From: Breoghania corrubedonensis
GTDB lineage: Bacteria > Pseudomonadota > Alphaproteobacteria > Rhizobiales > Stappiaceae
Direction: 5' to 3'
Length of the DNA: 64,000 bases
NCBI RefSeq assembly: GCF_003053845.1
Contig: NZ_QAYG01000001.1
Coordinates: 316,078-380,077 of the forward strand
Part shown: in pieces, positions 39,450-41,571 of the stretch
Layout of the letters: each line of letters begins with the position of its first letter
Position numbering within the stretch: the stretch's first letter is position 1
Made by a program: the position numbers and the translations under genes
Notes under the pieces: generated by a model
The model's database searches: none
What the model saw: the letters and a program-made list of their open reading frames with translations, nothing else
What the model was told of the DNA's origin: nothing

Positions 39450-39661
39450 TTCCAAGCCCACATTCATCGCAAAATATATCAATATGAATCGTAATATCTC
39501 CGATATTGACGCACGGTTCACGTTGTCTAGTATAACTAATAGGCCACAAATGATGGATAATAGACCTTCTAATTCCACCTAATACCCCAGAGGCGACGTG
39601 CCTAGGGTCAGAATATTTTAAGAATGGACTTCGCCGAATGCTCCCCAAAAGCCGTGAAGCG
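39450..39661 (+). promoter_or_regulatory. AT-rich region upstream of response regulator
   Basis: 212 bases visibly richer in A/T than the surrounding sequence, for example AAAATATATCAATATGAATC near 39471 and TCTAGTATAACTAATAGGCC near 39525. It presumably holds the promoter of the regulator gene. No operator palindrome is convincing. The composition shift suggests the two-component genes may have arrived by transfer. Confidence 0.45.
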
Positions 39662-40069
39662 ATGTATCAGAACAGAGTCATGGTCGTCGATGACGATGAA
39701 GACGACATCTATCTGATGAAGAAAGCGCTGGCGCGTCTTCAGGAGTCCGCCCGGGTCAATCTCGATCTGACATTCGTCCTTTCCGGATCAGATGCGTTGG
39801 GCGAGATCGATCGCGGTCTTCAAGACAACACCCTGCCGGACAAGATCTTTCTCGATCTGAACATGCCCGGGGTGAATGGACTTGATGTCCTTCACCACTG
39901 CATGGTGCAGGAGATACTCGACAAGGTAGATGTCGTCGTGATCACGACCGCTTCCGATCCCGATACCCGCCGTGCCGCGCTGGCCAGCGGTGCCAGATCG
40001 GTGTGCGTCAAACCAAACAGCCTGCAAGAAATGTCCGAGCTGATTTCCAGACTTCTGGACGTCAACTGA
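39662..40069 (+). CDS. Single-domain response regulator (Rcp1-like)
   Basis: 135 aa receiver domain with no output domain. Acidic pocket DDDEDD (10-15), phospho-acceptor Asp65 in IFLDLNMPGVNG, Thr95/96 in VVITTASDP, and Lys117 in VCVKPNS. The DLNMPxxNG form is typical of Rcp1-like regulators that pair with phytochrome- or CHASE-type kinases. It precedes the ethylene-receptor-like kinase on the same strand by 284 bases, so a cognate pair is likely. ATG 39662 is preferred (MYQNRVMVVDDDEDD); an upstream ATG at 39638 adds 8 residues. Neither has a strong ribosome site. Confidence 0.88.
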   Translation: MYQNRVMVVDDDEDDIYLMKKALARLQESARVNLDLTFVLSGSDALGEIDRGLQDNTLPDKIFLDLNMPGVNGLDVLHHCMVQEILDKVDVVVITTASDPDTRRAALASGARSVCVKPNSLQEMSELISRLLDVN

Positions 40070-40239: not shown

Positions 40240-40275
40240 TTCGCCATCTCATACGGATTCGCCATCTCATACGGA
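40240..40275 (+). repeat. Perfect 18-bp tandem duplication
   Basis: TTCGCCATCTCATACGGA occurs twice back-to-back (40240-40257, 40258-40275), about 80 bases before the histidine kinase start. It may be a recent slippage event or a doubled binding site for a regulator of the kinase gene. Confidence 0.9.
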
Positions 40276-40353: not shown

Positions 40354-41571
40354 ATGTCCGGGTACCTGGAGAACTTCTTCGAGGCGCAATCGTTCCTGGC
40401 GCACGGCTACTGTATGACGTGGAGAGGTGACCTGATCGCGCTACATGCGGTTTCCGACGCACTGATCTTCGTCAGCTACGTACTGATCCCCCTGGCAATG
40501 CTCTATTTCGTGCTACAACGTCCGGACCTTGCGCATAAAGGGATATTCGGACTCTTCGCGGCTTTCATTCTCGCCTGCGGAACCACTCATCTGATTTCCC
40601 TGATCACTCTGTGGGAGCCGATCTACGGCCTGGAAGGCCTGGTCAAGGCCATCACCGCGGCGATTTCCATGGCAACCGTCGTCGCCACGGGACTTGCGAT
40701 CCCCAAAGCCCTCCGCCTGCCCAGTCCCGCCATGCTGCGCGAAGCCAATCTTCAACTGGTGGACGAGGTGGAAAGCCACAGCCGGACAAATCGCGATCTG
40801 ATCCGCCTCCAGGACCAGCTGCGCGAGCATATGCGGGCGCGGGCGCGGGAAATGGAGGCCAAGGCGAGCGAGCTGGAGCGGGCGAACGAGAGCCTGCGCC
40901 GCTTCGCGCATATCGCCTCGCACGATCTGCAGGAGCCGCTGCGCAAGATATCGGTCTATGCCGACCTGCTCGAAGAGGCGCAGGAGAAGGGGGACACGGA
41001 AGACGCCGAGCGCGCGGTGCAGCGTTTGCGCACAATGTCGACCCGAGCCCGGACAATGGTCAGCGACCTGCTGCGGTTTTCCAAGATGAGCCAGTACGAA
41101 CCCGCCCGAATCCCGATCGATATCGGCGCGGCGATCCGTGAGGTGGCAGAGCTGTTCGAACACACGCTTGCCGCAAGCGACGGCACGTTGGAAATCGACG
41201 TCGACGACCTGAAGGCGGAGGCGGACCCGCTGCTGGTGCGCCAGATTTTCCAGAACATCATCGGCAATGCGATCAAGTACGTTCCGAAGGGACGCGGACC
41301 CCGCATCCGGGTAACGACGCGCCGGGAACATAACCACCGCCTGATCATGATCTCGGACAACGGCATCGGCTTCGCCCCGGAATTCAAATCGAAGATCTTC
41401 GAGCCTTTCACCCGTCTGCACGGGCGAGACGTTGCCGACGGCTCGGGCATCGGCCTCGCGATCGTCGCGCGGGCCGTTCAGGGCATGGGCTGGCGGATCG
41501 ACGTGGACACAGTCCCGGACAAGGGCACCACCTTCACCCTGGCGATTCCCCAAGGCGATATCCTGGTATAG
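40354..41571 (+). CDS. Histidine kinase with ethylene-receptor-like N-terminal domain
   Basis: 405 aa membrane sensor. Three transmembrane helices (about 27-53, 63-88, 95-118) are preceded by HGYCMTW, as in bacterial ETR-like sensors. Asp35, Pro46, Ile72, Cys75 and His79 (ILACGTTHL) match in identity and spacing Asp25, Pro36, Ile62, Cys65 and His69 of Arabidopsis ETR1, where Cys and His hold Cu(I). A coiled coil (about 130-182) leads to HisKA with His190 in ASHDLQEPLRK, then HATPase with N box IIGNAIKY, DNGIGF and GSGIGLAI. There is no GAF domain. Ligand binding is inferred, not shown. Probable partner: the upstream Rcp1-like regulator. Confidence 0.88.
   Translation: MSGYLENFFEAQSFLAHGYCMTWRGDLIALHAVSDALIFVSYVLIPLAMLYFVLQRPDLAHKGIFGLFAAFILACGTTHLISLITLWEPIYGLEGLVKAITAAISMATVVATGLAIPKALRLPSPAMLREANLQLVDEVESHSRTNRDLIRLQDQLREHMRARAREMEAKASELERANESLRRFAHIASHDLQEPLRKISVYADLLEEAQEKGDTEDAERAVQRLRTMSTRARTMVSDLLRFSKMSQYEPARIPIDIGAAIREVAELFEHTLAASDGTLEIDVDDLKAEADPLLVRQIFQNIIGNAIKYVPKGRGPRIRVTTRREHNHRLIMISDNGIGFAPEFKSKIFEPFTRLHGRDVADGSGIGLAIVARAVQGMGWRIDVDTVPDKGTTFTLAIPQGDILV

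Follow-up and report, generated by a model that had tools for sequence, protein, structure and literature searches.

The gene analysed here very probably encodes a copper-dependent bacterial ethylene receptor of the ETR1/SynEtr1/AzoEtr1 family that signals via a neighbouring response regulator. It lies in the window, a stretch of 64,000 nucleotides from Breoghania corrubedonensis, exactly where an earlier reading made from the sequence alone (the sequence-only reading) had placed it, and the features of the gene and of its neighbour are collected in Table 1. Ethylene receptors have been described in bacteria before, one of them proven, and the window protein is a well-supported further member of this family; it is mildly unusual only in its bacteriophytochrome-type kinase core and in the natural copper-ligand variants found among its relatives.

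Table 1. Coordinates in the window of the kinase gene, its domains and the neighbouring regulator gene.
Feature	Position	Strand	Basis and remarks
Single-domain response regulator, 143 aa, phospho-acceptor Asp73, without output domain	39638..40069	+	Pfam Response_reg, 53 bits
ETR1-like histidine kinase ORF, 405 aa	40354..41571	+	ATG start; Pfam ETR1_N + HisKA + HATPase_c
ETR1_N domain, residues 27-122, including D35, Y42, I45, P46, I72, C75, H79 and K98	40432..40719	+	Pfam; comparison with ETR1 and AzoEtr1
HisKA dimerisation/phospho-acceptor domain, residues 181-246; ASHDLQEP motif with His190	40894..41091	+	Pfam; motif
HATPase_c catalytic domain, residues 291-400; boxes NIIGNAIKY, DNGIGF, FEPF and GSGIGLAI	41224..41553	+	Pfam, 87.6 bits

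The N-terminal part of the protein matches the Pfam family ETR1_N (PF25487) over its full 97-position profile with 115.3 bits against a cut-off of 27 (E = 1.5e-33), which bears out the ETR1-like domain proposed by the sequence-only reading. No unrelated membrane-sensor family emerged as a better match, and neither the Pfam scan nor the sequence and fold searches placed another sensor family at this part of the protein. A sequence search of solved structures returned no relative spanning residues 1-101, and in the fold search kinase cores alone stood among the best rows, the membrane part being unmatched. Within the host genome (5.33 Mb in 21 contigs) ETR1_N matches the window kinase and nothing else, and 14 control genomes contained no match. 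Asp35, Pro46, Ile72, Cys75 and His79, the five residues named earlier as counterparts of the ethylene-binding residues of ETR1, are all present with the spacings given for them (11 from Asp to Pro, 29 from Pro to Cys, 4 from Cys to His); the list was correct as far as it went and had overlooked Tyr42 and Ile45, with which the set of seven ETR1 ethylene-binding residues is complete, as well as Lys98 in helix 3, the counterpart of ETR1 Lys91. This residue comparison was made with the ETR1 N-terminus and with the sequence of AzoEtr1 from NZ_CP012915. Residues 1-143 of the window protein align with AzoEtr1 of Azospirillum brasilense Sp7 without a gap, 74 of the 143 being identical (52%), and all nine marked positions are the same.

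Three hydrophobic stretches are seen by hydropathy (about residues 25-57, 57-90 and 92-122), and they agree with helices at 25-55, 64-84 and 91-121 in an AlphaFold2 model, in which pLDDT reaches only about 50-65 at these positions; the three membrane helices predicted before are thus recovered, with low model confidence. The model is a monomer built from six sequences (mean pLDDT 68.5), confident in part of the kinase and poor in the membrane domain. Cys75 and His79 are placed by it at i and i+4 on the same face of one predicted helix (pLDDT about 60), and because confidence in the membrane part is low, the geometry of the metal site was not taken from the model.

The Cu(I) site of ETR1 is open in principle to other pi-ligands, and the window protein might accordingly have kept the site while responding to copper itself or to another small cue such as another alkene, CO or redox state, other alkenes being compounds that marine or beach strains may meet. 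We consider this unlikely, since the domain aligns so closely with the proven ethylene binder AzoEtr1, with every binding residue kept; expressed in yeast, residues 1-130 of AzoEtr1 show saturable binding of 14C-ethylene, and biofilm formation is not rescued by the D35A and C75A mutants of AzoEtr1 (PMC11819568). Copper sensing is further disfavoured by the neighbouring genes: the regulator-kinase pair is flanked at one end by two ABC-2 transporter genes and at the other by a gene for an L,D-transpeptidase, with no copper-resistance gene among them. In favour of the copper-dependent ethylene receptor, the host genome encodes two copper P-type ATPases that score above their family cut-off.

Judged by sequence, the kinase core is of the bacteriophytochrome type, its nearest solved structure being the kinase domain of RpBphP2 (8f71, E = 1.6e-40), and its four HATPase_c boxes are intact and kept in the orthologues. 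A coiled linker (residues 125-180) lies between the membrane domain and the kinase. Likeness to bacteriophytochromes is limited to the kinase core: the Pfam scan found no GAF, PAS or PHY domain, and hence no PAS-GAF-PHY photosensory module, in keeping with the compact kinase without GAF described earlier. The type of this core, together with a regulator near phytochrome-type regulators, could speak for a kinase that responds to light or another signal and uses the membrane domain as a mere anchor; this is highly improbable because the membrane part is the sole domain able to receive a signal, no other domain being there to house a chromophore, and the conservation of the binding residues goes beyond hydrophobicity, Cys and His being visibly lost elsewhere in the order where the site is not kept. 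Five residues within hydrophobic helices could recur at random in an unrelated three-helix membrane sensor, a reading which the profile score, at an E value of 1.5e-33 across 97 positions and with no competing family, already refutes.

The probable partner of the kinase is the response regulator encoded 285 bp upstream of it. The receiver motifs of this regulator are intact, and the solved structures most similar to it are 6xvu (annotated simply as 'Response regulator'), 8avv (the regulator portion of a fusion with a bacteriophytochrome) and the phytochrome regulator RcpB. The gene order rsmD-ABC-ABC-RR-HK-LDT (response regulator, histidine kinase and L,D-transpeptidase at the end) is common to all three Breoghania genomes as far as each stretch extends, and the regulator-kinase pair is retained in the same order in other Breoghania genomes and in Hoeflea. 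In Breoghania sp. L-A4 (L059) two related tandem response regulators stand upstream of the kinase, compared with one in the window. Between the two window genes, two perfect tandem copies of an 18-bp repeat (TTCGCCATCTCATACGGA) occupy positions 40240-40275, and a GC-rich hairpin, unexceptional at z = -1.74, immediately precedes the kinase start; alignment of the intergenic DNA over three Breoghania genomes revealed no clearly conserved element, and Rfam had no match within the window. ACC deaminase, considered as a sign of ethylene-related metabolism, was rejected, its best match scoring 209 bits against a cut-off of 392.

ETR1_N is carried by 14 of 61 near relatives, by 64 of the 397 genomes sampled from the order (about 16%), for which a survey had been proposed, and by 28 of 385 genomes of the class. 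Among relatives it occurs in architectures with PAS and an HWE kinase, with PAS, HisKA and a receiver, and in compact forms. A census of 45 loci with a domain match above 90 bits (our own profile, window included) found all seven residues and the lysine in 35; one further locus departs from this set solely by Phe in place of Tyr42. Cys75 or His79 is lost or changed in nine of the 45. The copper-ligand variants at loci L068, L070, L092, L095, L096, L097, L098 and L100 carry Gly, Thr or Ser for Cys and Gln or Arg for His, and apparently represent several separate losses in the order.

In the tree, the window protein clusters with copies from Breoghania, Hoeflea and Rhizobium sp. 32-5/1 (support 100/99), and throughout this clade the regulator precedes the kinase, although it is frame-shifted in the Rhizobium strain. 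That strain has one kinase copy on a plasmid (L041) and one on the chromosome (L042); the two share about 99.7% identity, and the DNA flanking them is unrelated. The frame-shifted regulator lies upstream of both, and in the chromosomal copy Trp replaces the copper-ligand Cys, at the site that is mutated in plant etr1-1. The kinase orthologue of the Breoghania MAG MO_035.B22 (L044/L071) contains single-base indels and lacks a recognisable C-terminus, and the genes around it are intact; it is either a decayed gene or in part an assembly error, so that either this lineage can do without the system or the assembly is at fault there. Compact kinases of 381-416 aa with a direct fusion of ethylene-binding domain (EBD) and kinase and an adjacent single-domain response regulator, as in the window, are found in Hoeflea, Rhizobium sp. 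32-5/1, Novosphingobium and Blastomonas; those of the sphingomonads fall outside the orthologue clade and have their regulators on the opposite side of the kinase. Such a kinase with its neighbouring single-domain regulator is carried by a plasmid of Blastomonas sp. RAC04 from an algal phycosphere (L122) and by a conjugative plasmid of Novosphingobium sp. ES2-1 (L123), these plasmids being mobilizable or conjugative. The Breoghania host is a coastal soil and marine bacterium, and the plant association suggested by the sequence-only reading fits the source of its congener Breoghania sp. L-A4, the rhizosphere of the reed Phragmites (PMC6357640).

The mechanism that we infer for the window system, from ethylene binding and copper through phosphotransfer and the direction of control to the output, would begin at a Cu(I) site formed within the three membrane helices by Cys75 and His79 of helix 2 and steadied by Asp35 of helix 1, where ethylene would dock. 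Lys98 in helix 3 may relay the change via the coiled linker to the kinase core. As in ETR1 and, on indirect evidence, SynEtr1, where ethylene reduces kinase activity (PMC11819568), the ligand would likely lower kinase activity in the window protein as well, probably by decreasing autophosphorylation of His190 and hence transfer to Asp73 of the regulator. As the regulator has no output domain, the final effect must be delivered by a partner protein or a phosphorelay. Attachment, motility or metabolism might be affected in an Azospirillum-like manner; a phmmer search found no match of the window regulator at the AzoEtr1 locus, and because this regulator is not recognisably that of AzoEtr1, the output is not transferable from Azospirillum. 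The chances are in our judgement evenly balanced that the EBD, fused directly to a kinase of the bacteriophytochrome type and paired with a regulator of that type, makes up a minimal ethylene pathway of two genes, which would be kept among Hyphomicrobiales of marine and rhizosphere habitats (Breoghania, Hoeflea) and would signal by a route distinct from AzoEtr1 and SynEtr1.

If ethylene is bound, proven ethylene sensors would reach a second proteobacterial order, and a kinase of 405 aa with a receiver of 143 aa would offer a very small model for the control of a kinase by a Cu(I)-ethylene site. The natural copper-ligand variants of the relatives would provide a useful comparison for plant receptor mutants such as etr1-1.

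Among the known systems, AzoEtr1 resembles the window protein in the numbering of D35, C75, H79 and K98, in being present as a single copy with a neighbouring single-domain response regulator, and in belonging to Alphaproteobacteria with plant-associated relatives. AzoEtr1, at 525 aa, includes a PAS domain and another kinase core, whereas the window kinase is of the bacteriophytochrome type without PAS. The AzoEtr1 regulator, AzoRR-etr1, is encoded downstream and overlapping, whereas the window regulator lies upstream at a distance and is of another type. SynEtr1 (slr1212) of Synechocystis likewise carries ETR1_N on a two-component histidine kinase, with its regulator downstream (PMC7700396), and differs from the window protein by a light-sensing part with GAF. 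Plant receptors signal mainly to a Ser/Thr kinase, by a route that does not depend on the histidine kinase (PMC11819568); ETR1 and ERS1 share with the window protein the seven binding residues, the helix-3 lysine, the three N-terminal membrane helices and a histidine kinase, whereas the window protein dispenses with GAF and retains an intact bacterial kinase.
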